DNA from: Candidatus Thorarchaeota archaeon
GTDB taxonomy: Archaea > Asgardarchaeota > Thorarchaeia > Thorarchaeales > Thorarchaeaceae
Direction: 5' to 3'
NCBI GenBank assembly: GCA_004524445.1
Contig: SDNP01000010.1
Location: 1 to 64,000 of the forward strand
DNA: 64,000 bases
The notes under the pieces are model-generated. The model saw only the letters and a list, made by a program, of their open reading frames with translations, was not told where the DNA came from and ran no database searches. The position numbers and the translations under genes were made by a program. Below, in pieces: positions 37,935-48,331 of the stretch (position 1 is the stretch's first letter; each line of letters begins with the position of its first letter).

Positions 37935-38624
37935 TTATCTTGGCCGGTATCTTTTCGCTGCCAGCAACACCACCAACGCAACCACAGCGATTGTGAGCGG
38001 AGGTGCCAGAATAGTCAGGACCCTCTCAATACCAAGCTGGATATTCATTCTCGATGCTTCTCGGTATTCCAGAGTTTCATTGGTTCCCGTATCGAATAGC
38101 TTGTAGACATAGTGTGACAAGAATCCATCATCCTTTAGATACACAGCTCGAAGTGAGGCTTCGATATTAGTCAGGCTTATTCTCAAGATGTTTCTCCATT
38201 CATAACCCCAAAAATCGCTATCCTCTATGAGTTCATAATCCACCATGTCTTCCTGTTCAATATAAGTAGATAGTAGCCACCAGTCGCCAACTGGATATGC
38301 CAAATGCTCCAAGGCTTTGTTCCAGGGTTCATCAAGAATTAGCTCAGTTCCATTCAAAAAGGATTGTTCAACTTCGACAAGGGGAATTCTGCTTATGGAG
38401 CTAAAGGTATCAGTGAGATTTGGAGTATTGATGACCCTGAGCATGACTCTATAATCTATTTTAATATGACCCGATGATTCAACGTACAACTCAAATTCGT
38501 ATTCATCGCCTTCTTCAATGCCCCACCAATGGCGCAGGGCAACTACTGGAAATGCATATGAGTGCAAAATGACAACCAGGAAAATCCCAATTACCAAATA
38601 ATTCTTCGTTATCTCGCGCGTCAT
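37935..38624 (-). CDS. Membrane-anchored extracellular protein, function unknown
   Basis: A 229-residue protein when started at ATG 38624. A signal-like helix (YLVIGIFLVVILHSYAFPVVAL) is followed by an extracellular beta-rich domain (GDEYEFELYVESSG, DYRVMLRVIN) and a C-terminal helix (TIAVVALVVLLAAKRY) ending in basic residues. The topology resembles the neighbour at 38724 and suggests relatives: both have an EGD(E)-type strand after the signal and a DGFLxxY motif before the last helix. The longer frame to 38717 adds 31 residues of unlikely sequence. Function unknown; perhaps accessory to the ABC-2 transporter. Confidence 0.75.
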   Translation of the reverse strand: MTREITKNYLVIGIFLVVILHSYAFPVVALRHWWGIEEGDEYEFELYVESSGHIKIDYRVMLRVINTPNLTDTFSSISRIPLVEVEQSFLNGTELILDEPWNKALEHLAYPVGDWWLLSTYIEQEDMVDYELIEDSDFWGYEWRNILRISLTNIEASLRAVYLKDDGFLSHYVYKLFDTGTNETLEYREASRMNIQLGIERVLTILAPPLTIAVVALVVLLAAKRYRPR

Positions 38625-38723
38625 ATCAAACAATCTATCAGAAAGTATACGATTTGCACAGAAAAGGGCTTCGGGTAAGCCTGCAATAAAAGAAGGGTAA
38701 TGGGGGAAAACCCCCATTAGAAA

Positions 38724-39416
38724 CTATTTGCGTTTACAAACAACAAGACCAATAATCACAATCGCAGCAACGCCGATGCCAACATAAAGGATGTTATCCT
38801 CTAGAAGCTGCAATATATCGTCAAGGCCTCCGCCAGGAATCGTCTCCCTAGTGACCTCAATAGACTCAAGGAGTGTATCATTCAGGGTACTCCAGGTTTC
38901 GATTCTATAATCTGCAAGGAATCCATCCGATGTTGAGTAAGCAGCAGTAATTTTGGCCTCTTCAGTTGCAGTAGTGTCCATACTCCATTCTACAGTCCAT
39001 AGCCCACCAGCAGTATTGATATCTTCACCGGTAAGCTCAGGTGCAAGCAAATTCTCCAAGAGCGTAAAGTTCCCTATTGGTAGAGTGAATTTTCCGCCAA
39101 CAAAGAATATTCCAATGAAAATCAATGCTGTAATACCCATGCTGGTCCCATTCTGCCACCAGAAGTCGATATCAGGTTGTGGAATGGCATTCCAATCAGT
39201 CAGGGGATCAGGTATCGCAAGAGCAGGCATATCAGTTATATTGACATATAATCCCTCGCTTGGAACATCTTCATCAGTGCTAGTCATGGTAAAGTCGAAT
39301 CGATCACCAAACTGCACACCCCACTCCAATCCTTGTGATGTGGCCGCAGCTACAGGTGAGACCATAAACATTGACACAATTGCTAGTACAAAAATCATAT
39401 TTAGCGCGCGTTTCAT
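38724..39416 (-). CDS. Secreted protein with C-terminal membrane anchor, related to its neighbour
   Basis: A 230-residue protein from ATG 39416, chosen because AGGAGAT lies nine bases upstream and a signal peptide (MKRALNMIFVLAIVSM, cleavage after VSPVAAA) starts there. The extracellular part starts GLEWGVQFGDRFDFTMTS, and a hydrophobic stretch (ALIFIGIFFVGG) lies inside it. The C-terminus is one membrane helix (ILYVGIGVAAIVIIGLVVC) and KRK. The DGFLADYRIETW segment parallels DGFLSHYVYKLF of the next gene, so the two are probably distant paralogues in one operon. Function unknown. Confidence 0.78.
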   Translation of the reverse strand: MKRALNMIFVLAIVSMFMVSPVAAATSQGLEWGVQFGDRFDFTMTSTDEDVPSEGLYVNITDMPALAIPDPLTDWNAIPQPDIDFWWQNGTSMGITALIFIGIFFVGGKFTLPIGNFTLLENLLAPELTGEDINTAGGLWTVEWSMDTTATEEAKITAAYSTSDGFLADYRIETWSTLNDTLLESIEVTRETIPGGGLDDILQLLEDNILYVGIGVAAIVIIGLVVCKRK

Positions 39417-39556
39417 TGTTGATATATCTCCTAAACCATTCACGAATGGCTACTCTATCAATTGTACTTGACTAAAAAGGTCTTCTGTTATCAAGTAGTG
39501 CAGTATCCTTTCCGCGAGGGACAGAGTTTTGAAGGAGATTCTGTCAACGGTGTTTG

Positions 39557-41337: not shown

Positions 41338-41616
41338 TTAGTGGCGTTCTACGTCTACAAGGTCTAAGAATGCAGATGGCTCTTGATCCTCAGCTATAGG
41401 TCGAATTCTGTAGCGCTTGTATTCATGCGAGAGCTTTGCTGCAACGCGAGTACCCATCAATTTCTTGAAGAGGCTGGCCTTTTTGCCTCTCCACAGGTAT
41501 ACTGTTTCGTTATCATGGTCTATGACAACAATTACTTTCGAAGTGTCCAGTTGAATTGTTTCGGTGGTTATGTCCACCAGCTGTGCATCAGAGTCCACTT
41601 CATAGGCGTCCAGCAT
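41338..41616 (-). CDS. Single gelsolin-like domain protein
   Basis: A 92-residue protein consisting of one gelsolin-type domain: VIVVIDHDNETVYLWRGKKAS (strand, turn, strand with the WRGKKAS motif), an amphipathic helix LFKKLMGTRVAAKLSHEYK, then strand YRIRPIAE and EPSAF. Gelsolin domains bind and regulate actin; one- and two-domain forms occur in Asgard archaea and are counted as eukaryotic signature proteins. The typical acidic calcium site is only partly visible. ATG 41616 has GGTAGTGAT seven bases upstream. It heads a small operon with a winged-helix regulator. The binding partner is inferred, not shown; no actin gene is in the window. Confidence 0.75.
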   Translation of the reverse strand: MLDAYEVDSDAQLVDITTETIQLDTSKVIVVIDHDNETVYLWRGKKASLFKKLMGTRVAAKLSHEYKRYRIRPIAEDQEPSAFLDLVDVERH

Positions 41617-41775: not shown

Positions 41776-42501
41776 GTGAATTCTCCGGAGAGAGGAATCA
41801 TAAAATTCATCGATAGAGACTCGAGGAGAATTGAATTTGATTATGGCGGTTTCCAGCTGAATTATCCGTTGAATGCTATCCCGGAGTCACTCTATAATGC
41901 CTTAGCCACATTAGTTGATGGTTCTGAGGAGCCAATGCAAATCTATGGGCAGATGGTGAGGAATAGTGTCTACAAGCCGGCTGTTATTTCAAATGAGCAG
42001 ATTAAACCATTTGGTGTGAATGCCGCCACAAAGATCGTCAGATTGACTCTTACAGACGATGAGATTGAGAAGAGAATCAACGAGATTGAAGGTGTGATGC
42101 TCACCTTTCAAGGAAGGCCCTTTGAAGACACTATGTCACAGAGGATAGAATTGTATAAGGAGTTGCTCATCGACGATAACAAAATCGACCGGATGAGGTT
42201 GGGTGTCGCTGAAATGTTTGGCTTAAGAACGTACAACAATTTGCTTCACGACCCTCGATGTAGTCTAGCCTTTAGCTGGTACGACTCTGATAGTGGCCAA
42301 TCATTAGGATTTCAGATAAATTGCCTTGTTGAAATAGTACATCAAGGAGATCCATTTTATCGCTATATGCGTGTAATGCGCTCCTTATTTTCCAGGCGTT
42401 TCTTAGACTTGGAACATGAGGAATACATTTGTGCCTACAAGATGTTTATTTCAGAGGTTATAGACAAAAGCCTGGCAAGCTCGACAGGTTTTTCCCACTA
42501 A
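41776..42501 (+). CDS. Unknown conserved protein, tandem paralogue A
   Basis: A 241-residue soluble protein with no recognised family. It is a clear paralogue of the next gene, with shared blocks LNYPLNAIPESLY, ATKIVRLTLTD, IEGVMLTFQGRPF, DDNKIDRMRLGVAEMFG, DPFYRYMRVMRSLFSRRFLDL and EEYICAYKMFISE. The start is GTG 41776: GGTGAT lies four bases before it, and the earlier GTG 41767 is part of that ribosome site. Mixed alpha/beta composition, no membrane segment, no cysteine cluster. Converges, with its twin, on the VWA/MoxR pair. Possibly substrates or partners of that ATPase module. Confidence 0.78.
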   Translation: MNSPERGIIKFIDRDSRRIEFDYGGFQLNYPLNAIPESLYNALATLVDGSEEPMQIYGQMVRNSVYKPAVISNEQIKPFGVNAATKIVRLTLTDDEIEKRINEIEGVMLTFQGRPFEDTMSQRIELYKELLIDDNKIDRMRLGVAEMFGLRTYNNLLHDPRCSLAFSWYDSDSGQSLGFQINCLVEIVHQGDPFYRYMRVMRSLFSRRFLDLEHEEYICAYKMFISEVIDKSLASSTGFSH

Positions 42502-42572
42502 CCAGCAAGTGATTTATGTGATAACTGCTTATTGTCTTCCATATTAGGAATATTGAATGCATTGTGATAAGC

Positions 42573-43295
42573 ATGCAGACTGAACATACTCGCGTACGTT
42601 TCATTGATCGCGAACTGAGAAAAATTGAGGTGGAACGAGGAGATATTGTGCTATCTTACCCTTTGAATGCGATACCCGATTCACTGTATGAGAAGATAGC
42701 AGGGGCTCTTGGTGGTGACGAACCCTCAGCAACAAATCTTCGCTCAGTCTATAGAGACACCGTGATGAAACCTGCAGTCTGTACTTTTGACATACATCGT
42801 CCATATCCAATCAATGTCGCTACAAAAATCGTCCGTTTGACCCTTACTGATTCTGAGCTCGAAAAAAAGATTAATGATATAGAGGGAAAAATCCTCAGCT
42901 TCCAAGGTGTTCCTTTTGACGATTCTATTGAAGATAGAATCCAATTCTACAGAGACCTCTTCATCGATGATAAGAAGATTGACAGGTTTAGGATTGGAGC
43001 TGTTGAGATGTACGGAGACGCCACATACTCCAATATTCTAAATGACCCTCGAGTAACGCTCGGATTCTATTGGCGTTCAAGCAATCCACCAAACGCCATG
43101 AGCTATCAAATCAATGCAATCGCAGAGATGGTGAACAAGGATGACCCCTTCTATAGATACATGTGGGCTCTAAGGGGACTCTTTTCGCATAGATTTTTGG
43201 ACTTGGGGCGCGATGAATATGTATGCGCCTACAAGTTTTGGGTTTCAGAAACTCATGAGAAATCATTGACTGGAAGAACTGGCTTTACGCCCTAG
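42573..43295 (+). CDS. Unknown conserved protein, tandem paralogue B
   Basis: A 240-residue paralogue of the gene just upstream (71-bp gap). N-termini align when ATG 42573 is used (TRVRFIDRELRK against GIIKFIDRDSRR), and GTGAT lies four bases before that ATG; the GTG at 42564 is part of the ribosome site. Shared blocks include LSYPLNAIPDSLY, ATKIVRLTLTDSE, SFQGVPFDDS, DPFYRYMWALRGLFSHRFLDL and ICAYK-like VCAYKFWVSE. No family recognised. Duplication followed by divergence of both copies suggests a hetero-oligomer or specialised pair. Confidence 0.78.
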   Translation: MQTEHTRVRFIDRELRKIEVERGDIVLSYPLNAIPDSLYEKIAGALGGDEPSATNLRSVYRDTVMKPAVCTFDIHRPYPINVATKIVRLTLTDSELEKKINDIEGKILSFQGVPFDDSIEDRIQFYRDLFIDDKKIDRFRIGAVEMYGDATYSNILNDPRVTLGFYWRSSNPPNAMSYQINAIAEMVNKDDPFYRYMWALRGLFSHRFLDLGRDEYVCAYKFWVSETHEKSLTGRTGFTP

Positions 43296-43299
43296 GAAG

Positions 43300-45759
43300 C
43301 TAATAGTTGGTCAGCTTGAGCAGTCTTTCTGGCAATTCTTCGATGGATGCGATATCTAGTACAGCTCCATGAGACTTCTCGGCTAGTTTCTCAGCAGCTT
43401 GACTATTATATGAAGACCGTGGCACAAGAATAATCATCTCGATGCCCTGTTGCTTGAATTTGGTAGCTAATTCCTCACAGATTGATTGGTCAGACAAGTA
43501 AGCATCCGTACTGAAGATGAATATTTTCTCCTTTGCACGTGTATCCTCAAAATTCCGCAGAGCCAAGTTCATCGATTGGCGACCACCCGTCCCGCCGCTC
43601 GCACGAACCTCTAGCAAATCGGCAGCGACCTTTTCTACTGAAACTGATTTGTCAGCAATTTCTTTCACAACATGGGTGTGACTATCAAAGAGTACCACGC
43701 CAAAATCATCTTTCTGGACGCCATATAGGCCTGCCATGACGGATATGGATAGCATGCCCAGCTTCTCGGGACTATGCATCGAGCCTGATTTGTCAAGAGC
43801 CCAGTAAAACGCTCTGTGCCCCTGGTATGTTTCAGTGATCAGGAAATCCTCGGGGTCAACAAAGTTGAAATTCGTGTTTCCAGAGGAGAGCAGATGGTCT
43901 ATTGTTTCTTCCAGGTCGATAAGGTCAATGTCATCTCCGATACGGAATGGACGGACAGTTGTGGACTCTTGGATGCCCCCTAGCATTGATGAACCCATAG
44001 TCTGTCGAGAATAGCGAAGACCAAGGTCAATGAGCAGCTGACTGGCAATCTTCTTCAGACGTTGCCGCAATTCTGGGGGCAGTTCGTCTCGGTATGAGTA
44101 CCATATTCGAATCACATTAGAAGCTGGTCCGCCCATAAGACCACCGAATACAGAGTTCGCTCGCTTTTGATCGACGCCGTGCATTCCGCGGCCTGACTGG
44201 CCCATTGCCGCCCGCAGGTCATGGTGGCCAATTGCGCCTAATGCACTTTGGTTGTCCCTTTCATGTGCCATATCGGCAAGAATTCTCAGTTGTTGATGTG
44301 ATAAACCGGCTTGAGATACTAGAGTATGAAGCCTATCAAAATCCGAAACTCCAGCTTGAATTAGTTTCTTAATGACCTCGAAGGATGGGTTTAGCAACTC
44401 CTGAATTTCCGTATCACTCATTCCAACACGTCTACCGGCTTTGGTAACAGCCTGCTCAGAAGCCGGTGCCCCCATTGAGGAACATTGTTGTACGCTCTGT
44501 CGCAGATGAGTTCTATCAGGAGACCTGCCCATAACACCATCAGCGAGCTCCTGCATGCTTTCTTGCCATTTATTCCTGCATTGTGCGTCGGAAATTCCCT
44601 TCTTGAGATTCATCATCTCTTTGATTTTTTGTTTCAGAAAATCAGAAGGAGCAGACCGAGTGTCAGCATCCGTCAAGATATCATCAGTAACCCTGTCAAC
44701 AAGATCATTCCAACTGGATGTACTCCGATGATTTTCGGCAAGTTGACGGAAATCAACCTTATCTCGTGCACCCTGCTCGTAGAAGTCTGCATATGACTTC
44801 ATTACATTATCACTGACTCTTTCACCGGTAGCTGATTCGATACTGGATCCCATTTCCATGGCGTCGCTTAGTGAGTAGTTTCGGTATGCAGACTTCACAT
44901 GTTGGTCCAAAGAACCAGGGGTTCTCTCTAATCTCGATGCATACTCCGCAGCCTCATCAAGATTCTTGAGGCTCTTCTGCAGTTCTTTGTCCATGGCTTT
45001 GAGCATGTCGTCTGACAATCGTTCAAGGTCTTCCATGAGCTTCAGAGACTGAGCTGCAGAGGAAGGGTCACGATCTGCTAAGGCGGAGAATCTTTCTGCT
45101 ACGTCAGAGTCCCCACGTAAGGCGCGCGCAGCTATTTGTTCCGCCTCGAAGGATGAATCACAAATCCTTTCTAGAGAGTTCAATGTTGCTGCATTCAGGA
45201 GGTCTTTATGACTTAGGTTTCCTGTGCCTTGTATTAACTCGTCTGATGCCTTTTCCTTCAACTCCGAGTCAGAGGATATGCCTTGCAAAACGACATCTCC
45301 CTCATTCAAATAATCCATAGCTGCAGAATGCAGTTGCTTGTCCATTTTCTTTCGCAATTCTTGAAGGTAGGCATAGCCCGCCTCCACCTTATCTTGCTGA
45401 ATTTTTGCTGCAAGTTCTTGTTCTGCAATTATTTGGTCTATGATGGACTGGATATGCGTGTTATTTCCAGAGGCTGGCTTCTTCACCTCTTTGACTGGAG
45501 GAGGCGGCATTTTCTGCCGCTCTCTTCCGAGTAGAATATCTTCAGCAATTTTTCGTGCAATCTTTTGGTCAGGGGGGTGAGTTGTAAAGACTGCGGCATC
45601 CACAAAATCATCCAGTGATAATCCGCCTTGCTTGAAGTACCGGGCGGAAAGAAACTTCGGAATTGCTTGAGTCTGCCGAACACTCGGATAGAACCTGACT
45701 TCTTCTGATCTTCGCATGCGTGTCACAAATTCATGTGAGAAACCCGGAACATTTTCCAT
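43300..45759 (-). CDS. VWA-domain protein partner of MoxR ATPase
   Basis: An 819-residue soluble protein from ATG 45759. The N-terminal 80 residues (RFYPSVRQTQAIPKFLSARY) resemble VWA partners of MoxR ATPases. A long helical middle (about 85-600) is rich in Glu, Lys, Asp and Ser, with no known motif. The C-terminal quarter is a von Willebrand factor A domain with the metal site DKSGSMHS (about residue 651), followed by DDFGVVLFDSHTHVV and IFIFSTDAYLSDQS. VWA and MoxR pairs act together to insert cofactors or remodel target proteins. The ATPase gene ends 13 bp upstream. The longer frame to 45813 overlaps it and is less likely. Confidence 0.87.
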   Translation of the reverse strand: MENVPGFSHEFVTRMRRSEEVRFYPSVRQTQAIPKFLSARYFKQGGLSLDDFVDAAVFTTHPPDQKIARKIAEDILLGRERQKMPPPPVKEVKKPASGNNTHIQSIIDQIIAEQELAAKIQQDKVEAGYAYLQELRKKMDKQLHSAAMDYLNEGDVVLQGISSDSELKEKASDELIQGTGNLSHKDLLNAATLNSLERICDSSFEAEQIAARALRGDSDVAERFSALADRDPSSAAQSLKLMEDLERLSDDMLKAMDKELQKSLKNLDEAAEYASRLERTPGSLDQHVKSAYRNYSLSDAMEMGSSIESATGERVSDNVMKSYADFYEQGARDKVDFRQLAENHRSTSSWNDLVDRVTDDILTDADTRSAPSDFLKQKIKEMMNLKKGISDAQCRNKWQESMQELADGVMGRSPDRTHLRQSVQQCSSMGAPASEQAVTKAGRRVGMSDTEIQELLNPSFEVIKKLIQAGVSDFDRLHTLVSQAGLSHQQLRILADMAHERDNQSALGAIGHHDLRAAMGQSGRGMHGVDQKRANSVFGGLMGGPASNVIRIWYSYRDELPPELRQRLKKIASQLLIDLGLRYSRQTMGSSMLGGIQESTTVRPFRIGDDIDLIDLEETIDHLLSSGNTNFNFVDPEDFLITETYQGHRAFYWALDKSGSMHSPEKLGMLSISVMAGLYGVQKDDFGVVLFDSHTHVVKEIADKSVSVEKVAADLLEVRASGGTGGRQSMNLALRNFEDTRAKEKIFIFSTDAYLSDQSICEELATKFKQQGIEMIILVPRSSYNSQAAEKLAEKSHGAVLDIASIEELPERLLKLTNY

Positions 45760-45772
45760 GGTGGATTCGATT

Positions 45773-46711
45773 CTAGGTTGATTGGCCACTCTCAGAACTC
45801 CTCTTACTCCCAAGTACCCGTCTCACTAACGCATTAACGGCAGGCTCAGCATCTACTCCAGGTCGGAATCGCAGTGCTCCTACCAAGACGTAATGCGCTG
45901 CTGTTGAAAGAGTGTTATGATCTATCTCCTCTAGCCTCTTCCGCCTAGCCATCTGCGCGCTCAGTCTGGCAATCGAAATGCCAGCTCGAATAGATGCTGG
46001 AATCTCAATATCAGTTGAAGAGCGGGTTGCAGAGACAAGTGAGTAAATCTGCGCCAGTACATGATCTGATAGGTTATATTCCGGACAATTTACTTTCACT
46101 ATCTCGATTTCAGTAGCCTTCCTTGGATAGCCGAGCTTTATCCATACTCGAATCCGGTCTCTCAATGCTTCACTTAGCCTATGGGCACCAGCCATTTCCT
46201 CGGGATTCATACTCAGCACTGGAAAGAAATCCTCATCCGCTTGGATTCGCCCTAGACGCTGTACATTTGCTGAACGTTCTTCGAAGGGCTCAAGAAGACT
46301 ATTTTGAACATATTCAGGCAATCGATTGGCTTCATTAAGCCCGAATACTGAGCCGAAAACCATGGATTTTAGGAGAGGCCCTGGTTCAAAAGATTCGAGA
46401 TTGAACCCCTTCTGCAATACCAATGCCGGATTGAAGGAGCCAATAAGATGCGACGGTCTCACGCCCTCGTCGCCCGTAATCCAGTGGAAGTTCCTCTTGC
46501 TCTTTTCAGCATAGGCACGTAGAAGCAGAGTTTTACCCACTCCAGGTGGGCCCACTATACCTGGTATGAGACCTGCATTCTCGCAGTCCTCCAACACCTC
46601 AAATGCGTCCTTATATTGCTCCTTTATGACTATGCGTACACGTTCCTGTGAAGCGGCATCCATGCGCTTCTTGAACTGCGATGCGAATAATCGATGTTCT
46701 TTTTGCACCAT
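45773..46711 (-). CDS. MoxR-type AAA+ ATPase with Asn in Walker B
   Basis: A 312-residue AAA+ ATPase of the MoxR/CbbQ branch. Walker A is GPPGVGKT (about residues 54-61). The Walker B region reads VFGLNEANRLP, where Asn replaces the Asp that normally coordinates magnesium (usual form LxxDEINR), while the catalytic Glu is kept. Sensor-1 MNPEE and the arginine-finger region SEALRDRIRVWIKL are present. MoxR ATPases work with VWA proteins as chaperones. ATG 46711 has GGGGGTT about 11 bases before. Same operon as the VWA gene. Whether it hydrolyses ATP normally is uncertain. Confidence 0.9.
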   Translation of the reverse strand: MVQKEHRLFASQFKKRMDAASQERVRIVIKEQYKDAFEVLEDCENAGLIPGIVGPPGVGKTLLLRAYAEKSKRNFHWITGDEGVRPSHLIGSFNPALVLQKGFNLESFEPGPLLKSMVFGSVFGLNEANRLPEYVQNSLLEPFEERSANVQRLGRIQADEDFFPVLSMNPEEMAGAHRLSEALRDRIRVWIKLGYPRKATEIEIVKVNCPEYNLSDHVLAQIYSLVSATRSSTDIEIPASIRAGISIARLSAQMARRKRLEEIDHNTLSTAAHYVLVGALRFRPGVDAEPAVNALVRRVLGSKRSSESGQST

Positions 46712-46796: not shown

Positions 46797-47525
46797 TCAG
46801 CAATATATCTCATTAGCGGGATTATTCCCATATTTGACCCAGAATGCCAAAAAGAATACAGCTACGATGAATATGTAGTCGCCGATGTTATACAAGTAGG
46901 TGCCAAACAGAGCCAAGTAGAAAATCGTATCCTCCATTAGTGACGGAATTGTGTTTTTGACAAAATGAAGAATACTGGCAACTGGAATCACTACAGAAGC
47001 AAATTCAAAGAATATCGGCCGTGTCGAGTTGGCAGCTGCGGTCCAAAGTGTGAGCCCAGCTAGCGTCCACACAAAAATACGAGCTATATTGACGACAAAC
47101 AGCCCAATAACCGGATCAACACTACTAAAGGCAATTTGCAGAGGAGCAACCACCACTAGAAACAGGAATCCCTGCGAGGCCATGGTTGCATATTTGTTGG
47201 GGGATCTGTCGTTGAATGCTTTGAAAGCCTGCCAAAATAAACCACTATACAGGACGGCGAATACAGTTGTCAAGCCGCTTAACACTGATATAAGAACGGT
47301 GCCGTTCTGAGAAAACAATATTGGTCTATACGCCAGTAGTAGGCTGACAACAAAACCAGAGAACATGAAGACAGATGCATACAATCCGTATTTGAAGTAT
47401 CTCCTACTTGACTCTAGCCTTGCTGAACGAGTCCCTGTTTCCATTTCATATTCTTGTGTGTGATGCTCCATTTTCTTCCCCATACAATCAATAGAAAGTT
47501 TGGATGTGGTGAACGACTTCTTCAT
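46797..47525 (-). CDS. Multi-pass membrane protein, function unknown
   Basis: A 242-residue protein with about seven predicted membrane helices between residues 45 and 235 and a polar N-terminus of about 40 residues with two extra Met codons (15 and 19) as possible starts. Sequence shows conserved small features (ARIFVWTLAGLTLW, GDYIFIVAVFFLAFW) but no family I recognise. Its design is similar to the next gene: both have seven helices, a polar N-terminus and a FNDRSPNKYA or FNNRFAYYAA segment after the helix 3 region, suggesting distant paralogues. Confidence 0.75.
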   Translation of the reverse strand: MKKSFTTSKLSIDCMGKKMEHHTQEYEMETGTRSARLESSRRYFKYGLYASVFMFSGFVVSLLLAYRPILFSQNGTVLISVLSGLTTVFAVLYSGLFWQAFKAFNDRSPNKYATMASQGFLFLVVVAPLQIAFSSVDPVIGLFVVNIARIFVWTLAGLTLWTAAANSTRPIFFEFASVVIPVASILHFVKNTIPSLMEDTIFYLALFGTYLYNIGDYIFIVAVFFLAFWVKYGNNPANEIYC

Positions 47526-47677: not shown

Positions 47678-48331
47678 TTAGGGGAGTTGGGACATCCTGC
47701 GGAAGAAAATTGCGAATAAGAGAATGGGTCTAATAATTCCACACGTAATGAAATTTGGAATAATAAAGGGATTACTCGTGAACCTTGCCTGGTATAGAAT
47801 GATTTGGATATTTCTAGTAAGGGCAAAAACACTGAAGGCAGTACAGAGAAGAAATACGAAACACATACTGATGTAGAGTTGCCTGTCTTTTGCTCTGTTT
47901 CGCTCCGACCAAAATACCACTGCTGCCAGCGCAGAGATGGTAATTCCAGATACTAAAGAAACAAAAAAGGATGGAGTCGATGGTGATAAAAATCCAGCGA
48001 CTGAAAATAAAACCATTGCCAAATAGCCGAGAGCCGCATAGTATGCAAAACGATTATTGAACTCGCGATAGACGGCCTGAAATCCCCTAGAAATCAAAAA
48101 TATTGATGCAATATCTACTATATTCGAAATAAGGTAGAGTGCATTAGAGATAAGTAAATTGATCGAGCCTGAAGTCCAAGAGATCAATAAATACATGGTT
48201 AGAACTGACAGTACATTCCGTACGACTATTTGGATTGATACGCCAATTAGTCCTAGCCGGTATAGTTTCTTAATTTCCTTAGAAATGGCAGGTGGTATTA
48301 CTCCCATATCGTAATGAATGCCTTTACCCAA
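47678..48331 (-). CDS. Multi-pass membrane protein, possible paralogue of neighbour
   Basis: A 217-residue protein with about seven membrane helices. The first starts near residue 28 and there is a charged loop SERNRAKDRQ in the middle. The segment GFQAVYREFNNRFAYYAALGYL resembles the KAFNDRSPNKYATMASQGF segment of the protein encoded at 46797, so the two may derive from one ancestor. TTG 48331 opens the frame; ATG 48307 (MGVIPPAISKE) is an alternative. No function is assigned. Confidence 0.72.
   Translation of the reverse strand: MGKGIHYDMGVIPPAISKEIKKLYRLGLIGVSIQIVVRNVLSVLTMYLLISWTSGSINLLISNALYLISNIVDIASIFLISRGFQAVYREFNNRFAYYAALGYLAMVLFSVAGFLSPSTPSFFVSLVSGITISALAAVVFWSERNRAKDRQLYISMCFVFLLCTAFSVFALTRNIQIILYQARFTSNPFIIPNFITCGIIRPILLFAIFFRRMSQLP

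Follow-up and report, generated by a model that had tools for sequence, protein, structure and literature searches.

Two paralogous genes in a Thorarchaeota genome converge on a gene pair encoding a MoxR-family AAA+ ATPase and an unusually large VWA protein, and the question raised by this locus is whether the four genes form one self-contained module, in which the paralogues serve as clients of the pair, or whether they are neighbours that can be separated. The former was suggested in a preliminary description made from the sequence. The window analyzed here is the whole stretch of 64,000 nucleotides from Candidatus Thorarchaeota archaeon (GCA_004524445.1, contig SDNP01000010.1, positions 1 to 64,000), and the genome carrying it comprises 2.79 Mb. 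In this study, the four genes were examined with respect to their domains, predicted structures, distribution, neighbourhood and decay.

Layout, folds and motifs of the four genes

The positions and the convergent layout of the four genes (Table 1) were borne out by open reading frames and orthologues, and the genes are regarded as real coding sequences because orthologues of each were found repeatedly in Thorarchaeota genomes. The mechanical reading frame of the VWA protein (43300-45813, minus strand) opens at a TTG at 45813 and comprises 837 aa; the GTG start at 45789 was favoured over it because a purine-rich stretch lies upstream and orthologues begin at the GTG. The end of the MoxR gene overlaps the start of the VWA gene (45773 versus 45789, both on the minus strand), and the stops of the second paralogue and the VWA gene lie 4 nt apart, tail to tail.

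Table 1. Positions of the four genes and of the regions distinguished within them (window coordinates)
Feature	Position	Strand	Description or basis
Paralogue 1, P0001, 244 aa	41767-42501	+	PNPOx/F420/haem-binding split beta-barrel (predicted)
Split-barrel region of P0001, model residues 72-233	41980-42465	+	Model secondary structure, Foldseek, Pfam PNPOx_N at residues 144-211
Paralogue 2, P0002, 243 aa	42564-43295	+	Same family as P0001
VWA protein, P0003, 829 aa from GTG 45789	43300-45789	-	N-terminal part, all-helical middle, C-terminal VWA with MIDAS
VWA domain of P0003, residues 658-837 of the 837-aa ORF	43300-43842	-	MIDAS, hydrophobic C-terminus LLxxTNY
Best-conserved segment of P0003, residues 600-645 (837-aa numbering), ...TMGSSMLGGIQESTTVRPFRIGDD...	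43879-44016	-	Alignment; just ahead of the VWA core
MoxR-family AAA+ ATPase, P0004, 312 aa	45773-46711	-	AAA_5/AAA_3 matches, motifs

P0001 and P0002 are 50% identical across 236 aa (E 2e-91). They had been assigned to no recognised family, a statement that has to be revised: the AlphaFold model, the Foldseek search and weak PNPOx_N matches point to a recognisable flavin/F420/haem split-barrel fold. The model of P0001, built with 35 relatives as input, reached a pLDDT of 89.4 and a pTM of 0.86, and Foldseek against the PDB retrieved F420-binding MSMEG_6526, HupZ, an FMN-binding protein, PaiB and further split barrels, with a best E of 6e-5 at probability 1.00 and target-normalised TM scores of 0.57-0.75 for the better matches. 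Pfam PNPOx_N scored 23.2 bits for P0001 and 20.9 bits for P0002, under the gathering score of 28.1, and was weakly matched by 23 of the 35 relatives. By predicted fold, P0001 and P0002 are split-barrel proteins of the PNPOx/F420/haem-binding kind. Their core fold is common to PNPOx, FDOR, FMN-binding protein and HupZ, whereas in comparison with small split barrels they have an additional beta-hairpin at the N-terminus and, inserted between strands of the barrel, two long helices. In a by-eye alignment of the Thorarchaeota members, an aromatic residue appears to stand where many PNPOx proteins have a Lys in contact with the FMN phosphate.

The tandem arrangement of the paralogues holds for the window and for genome G196 but not as a rule, since no other locus with two adjacent copies was found. 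The two window paralogues fall apart in the family tree and are therefore not a recent duplication. Deep branches of this tree are unresolved, and single and repeated gain of the MoxR/VWA pair are not separable in it. Most pairs in the selection test had saturated synonymous sites; the few usable ones gave dN/dS values of about 0.02-0.15, with 0.22 in one near-saturated pair. Relatives of the paralogues were not found by short peptide patterns across 84,980 species.

The identification of a MoxR/VWA pair was confirmed by intact ATPase and MIDAS motifs, which do not vary among the aligned Asgard relatives. P0004 matched Pfam AAA_5 (E 1.6e-16) as well as AAA_3 above the cut-off, and its Walker A GPPGVGKT, Walker B NE126-127, N169, R186 and R242 are invariant among 21 relatives. 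Its best NCBIfam match was GvpN (TIGR02640), which at 62.7 bits missed the equivalog cut-off of 266.8, and no NorQ/CbbQ equivalog was assigned to it in NCBIfam. P0003 matched PF00092 above the cut-off and contains a complete MIDAS (DxSxS-T-D), the residues of which (D674, S676, S678, T742 and D770) are invariant in 36 sequences; its C-terminus LLxxTNY is fixed among the aligned relatives. The claim of a helical middle of about 500 residues agrees with DSSP of the AlphaFold model, in which a purely alpha-helical region (about residues 118 to 606) precedes the C-terminal VWA domain. Residues 612-617 form a low-confidence tip, and the surrounding segment 600-645 is a putative counterpart of the NorD finger, judged from its conservation and from the model. 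The top PDB fold match of the P0003 model was NorD in the NorQD complex (9qhd, E 1.5e-5); the likeness to NorD rests on the VWA end because no good fold match was obtained for the helical part.

Profile comparison placed MoxR-type 2r44, NorQ and CbbQ nearest to P0004. Midasin is a eukaryotic protein with six AAA domains plus a MIDAS domain, and a close archaeal relationship of the Asgard pair to it was considered, given a whole-sequence E of 3e-53 with the MoxR-family profile and the fifth rank of the human MDN1 MIDAS domain among the fold matches of the VWA model. The underlying score adds up nine matched AAA pieces, and the highest-scoring individual Midasin domain reached 39 bits, below NorQ (47), CbbQ (48) and 2r44 (76); the VWA profile yielded no Midasin sequence match at E 0.1. 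On the single-domain scores this kinship was rejected, and we regard it as highly improbable. A defence system was also dismissed, PADLOC having returned generic ATPase scores and nothing more. A plasmid search gave distant matches to the MoxR protein and none to the VWA protein.

Co-occurrence, synteny and decay within Thorarchaeota

A total of 228 genomes of the phylum were searched with P0001, P0003 and P0004, 47 of which belong to the host family. In this family a paralogue-type gene was found in 38 genomes, the orthologous pair in 30 and both in 29; the genome bins are incomplete, and part of the absences may be assembly gaps. Co-occurrence, which the preliminary description had proposed to check, is frequent: 29 of the 30 pair-bearing genomes hold a paralogue-type gene, compared with 9 of the 17 pair-less ones (Fisher p 5.5e-4, a value that ignores phylogeny and contig loss), and the sole exception among the former, G216, is truncated at a contig end. 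The two are adjacent and tail to tail in 28 Thorarchaeota genomes, with 3' ends ranging from an 11 nt overlap to a 4 nt gap, and the join was kept in 21 of 21 loci measured. All linked loci lie in one block (clusters 12, 9, 5, 4, 14, 8 and 7, the paralogue-type gene, the pair, then clusters 6, 10, 2, 2 and 11), and the linkage is for this reason read as one inherited arrangement rather than many independent events. Four genomes (G188, G195, G207 and G213) are without both the pair and the paralogue-type gene, and this joint absence is uninformative on coupling because a close orthologue of the block's amidohydrolase is missing as well.

Several other genes of this neighbourhood were recorded. 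A gene for a 92-aa single gelsolin-like domain (window 41338-41616, minus strand) is divergent from the first paralogue and kept in 21 Thorarchaeota loci. Two adjoining secreted or membrane-anchored paralogues, one with a weak PDGLE match (37935-39443, minus strand), occur in many Thorarchaeota blocks. Two hydrophobic, probably membrane proteins (46797-47525 and 47678-48331, minus strand) had no family match and no relatives in the neighbouring loci compared.

The pair was found to be decayed, absent or unlinked in several genomes. What is left at the G187 site is residues 9-105 of MoxR, interrupted by stop codons, together with the tail of the VWA protein, and at the G200 site the last VWA codons only, fused to an unrelated frame; the paralogue-type gene beside these relics is full length in both (242 and 245 aa, respectively). 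In the tree the G200 gene lies on a branch of ordinary length (0.17) inside a pair-bearing genus, and the G187 gene pairs with that of pair-bearing G186. Four genomes at least 92% complete (G182, G184, G189 and G221) possess a paralogue-type gene and lack the orthologous pair; a MoxR-VWA-SWIM set of another kind is present in G182. The G189 copy within the block is broken by a stop or frame changes (locus L110, 1901-2398, minus strand), and a full copy is present elsewhere (L109, 8964-9701, plus strand). In G222 the pair and the paralogue-type gene are located on separate contigs (C8 and C29), the latter in the usual block with no relic of the pair alongside. The preliminary description had named paralogues without the pair in most genomes as the result that would refute its proposal; in the family such genomes amount to 9 of the 38 holders, and the decayed pairs are the stronger evidence against clients.

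SWIM-type partners in other Asgard archaea and the relation of paralogues and pair

Full-length relatives of the pair were found in numerous genomes of Lokiarchaeota and other Asgard archaea, with VWA identities of 22-31%, and among the matches listed the VWA-protein profile recovered Thorarchaeota, Lokiarchaeota and Heimdallarchaeota together with three bacterial matches confined to the VWA domain. In 17 of the 20 fetched loci elsewhere in Asgard archaea a protein with a SWIM motif is encoded beside the pair. In 15 of them the next gene belongs to cluster 13 (about 725-787 aa), whose members share an invariant SWIM-type motif, HxC...CxH, and in two further loci a different neighbour carries this motif. 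Three of 393 other long proteins carry such a motif, two being those different neighbours, and Pfam SWIM was matched by 2 of 14 cluster-13 members. No SWIM gene lies beside the window pair, and a search of the window's genome with profile A3 retrieved no relative; full-length SWIM-type relatives in the host family were found in G182 and G201 only, each beside a second, different pair. These results point to a MoxR-VWA machine that occurs widely among Asgard archaea and is in most cases accompanied by a SWIM-type zinc protein. The Asgard MoxR-VWA-SWIM gene set and the SWIM-less Thorarchaeota pair are the main new points of this study, and no description of a MoxR-VWA(-SWIM) machine in Asgard archaea was found in the literature searched. 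The conserved SWIM partner and the contrast between Lokiarchaeota and Thorarchaeota open the question of the client to comparison.

Two further observations concern proteins and pairs of related type. A protein of 743 aa (L208, 5749-7980, plus strand) combines a SWIM motif with motifs that by eye resemble those of helicases, and SWIM matches in ORFs of similar length recur in most Thorarchaeota genomes; this SWIM protein of about 740 aa is a separate protein, and its motifs in the window's genome look helicase-like. Asgard MoxR-VWA pairs also include a second type (L084, 6150-13141; L088, 5819-13177), which in one Lokiarchaeota-family and one Thorarchaeota genome lies beside a different three-gene set that includes an SbcC/Rad50-like ATPase of 846-858 aa.

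With respect to the locus itself, we consider it probable that two neighbouring, separable systems are present, a NorQD/CbbQO-like MoxR-VWA machine and split-barrel proteins that are functional without it, their linkage being mainly due to vertical inheritance. P0001 and P0002 would then keep a function in the absence of the pair, and the pair would occupy a site, tail to tail with a split-barrel gene, within a block that is conserved in Thorarchaeota. The strongest evidence is that paralogue-type genes are intact beside decayed pairs, which disfavours an obligate dependence on the pair; the co-occurrence and the kept tail-to-tail join are points against this reading, and a facultative link may exist in pair-bearing genomes. 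The same two points (29 of 30 versus 9 of 17, and 21 loci with the conserved join) speak for the reading that the paralogues are clients unfolded or loaded with a cofactor by the pair and that the four genes are one module, and since iron is loaded by a bacterial relative of the machine (PMC13036017), a protein with a cofactor-type fold is a plausible client. We nevertheless regard this as unlikely, because the gene remains intact beside decayed pairs and is retained in pair-less genomes of 92-98% completeness, because it is unlinked in G222 and encoded on the opposite strand, not in an operon with the pair, and because pairs in the 20 fetched loci elsewhere in Asgard archaea have no such gene beside them and no MoxR/VWA match is present in the fetched flanks where other Asgard families encode distant relatives of the paralogues. 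The proposal that the paralogues are clients is thus unsupported, and so is that of a self-contained four-gene module, given the unlinked genes in G222 and the SWIM-type third gene that accompanies pairs elsewhere in Asgard archaea.

Another reading of the contrast in SWIM genes is that the split-barrel protein replaced the SWIM-type protein in Thorarchaeota as a third component for specificity or sensing; it would work together with the pair rather than as a client, with a second job explaining its survival after loss of the pair. A SWIM-type third gene in 17 of 20 other Asgard pairs and none with the Thorarchaeota pair, which almost never occurs without a split-barrel gene, would fit such a replacement; the opposite strand, the unlinked genes of G222 and the survival without the pair speak against it, and we hold it to be improbable. 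We likewise give little credence to its extension, that the Thorarchaeota machine exchanged the zinc protein for a flavin-fold third component and became a new redox-sensing or cofactor-loading remodelling system. Under the separable arrangement that we prefer, the unknown module of four genes resolves into two nameable systems that are separately testable, and the locus serves as a warning that conserved gene order within a single archaeal family can be mistaken for a functional link.

Comparison with known MoxR/VWA systems

Pairs of an ArnB-type VWA protein and a GvpN-like ATPase are known from archaea (arCOG02900/arCOG00441), and in Thaumarchaeota they occur in association with type IV pilus loci (PMC4858521). 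The window pair resembles them as an archaeal combination of MoxR/GvpN and VWA, but no pilus genes were recognised beside it. In E. coli, the yehL-yehM-yehP-yehQ operon encodes a MoxR protein, one uncharacterised gene product, a VWA protein and a SWIM zinc finger, the same three ingredients as the Asgard MoxR-VWA-SWIM loci, whereas the window pair is without the SWIM gene. YehL and the window MoxR share just 28% identity in the ATPase core, the YehP alignment is confined to the VWA end of P0003, and comparison of YehQ with the Asgard SWIM protein, like that of YehM with P0003, revealed no similarity.

Among the closest parallels are NorQ-NorD of denitrifying bacteria and CbbQ-CbbO, which like P0004 and P0003 are encoded by adjoining genes for a MoxR-type AAA+ protein of about 270-310 aa and a large VWA protein, the latter with a helical front part and a C-terminal VWA/MIDAS domain in NorD/CbbO-type partners and P0003 alike. 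P0003 differs from NorD by a mostly helical part of more than 500 residues for which no good fold match was obtained. No norCB or Rubisco genes are among the neighbours with recognised domains, which are amidohydrolases, a PLP enzyme, an M32 peptidase, an ABC transporter and small gelsolin-like and winged-helix proteins. In NorQD, a finger ahead of the VWA core enters the pore of the ATPase, the ring serves as docking site for the C-terminus of NorD, and twisting of the linker by ATP turnover allows iron insertion (PMC13036017). In the alignment, the docking sites expected for the NorQD/CbbQO type have candidates at matching places of P0003, namely segment 600-645 and LLxxTNY, and a NorQD-like mechanism is the best guess because of the conservation of this segment ahead of the VWA core and the fixed C-terminal end. 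We infer from this analogy that the AAA+ ATPase would form a ring holding the VWA protein by a finger hairpin in its pore and by the C-terminus, that ATP hydrolysis would rotate the VWA domain and thereby strain the long helical region, and that the MIDAS site or the helical region would grip a client, opening it or loading a cofactor. The pair itself has intact motifs, strict pairing, a helix-plus-VWA layout and NorD as its best structural match, and to judge from these parallels it is most likely a NorQD-like remodelling machine. It belongs to a known kind of machine, the MoxR/VWA AAA+ remodelling pairs, as a new variant.
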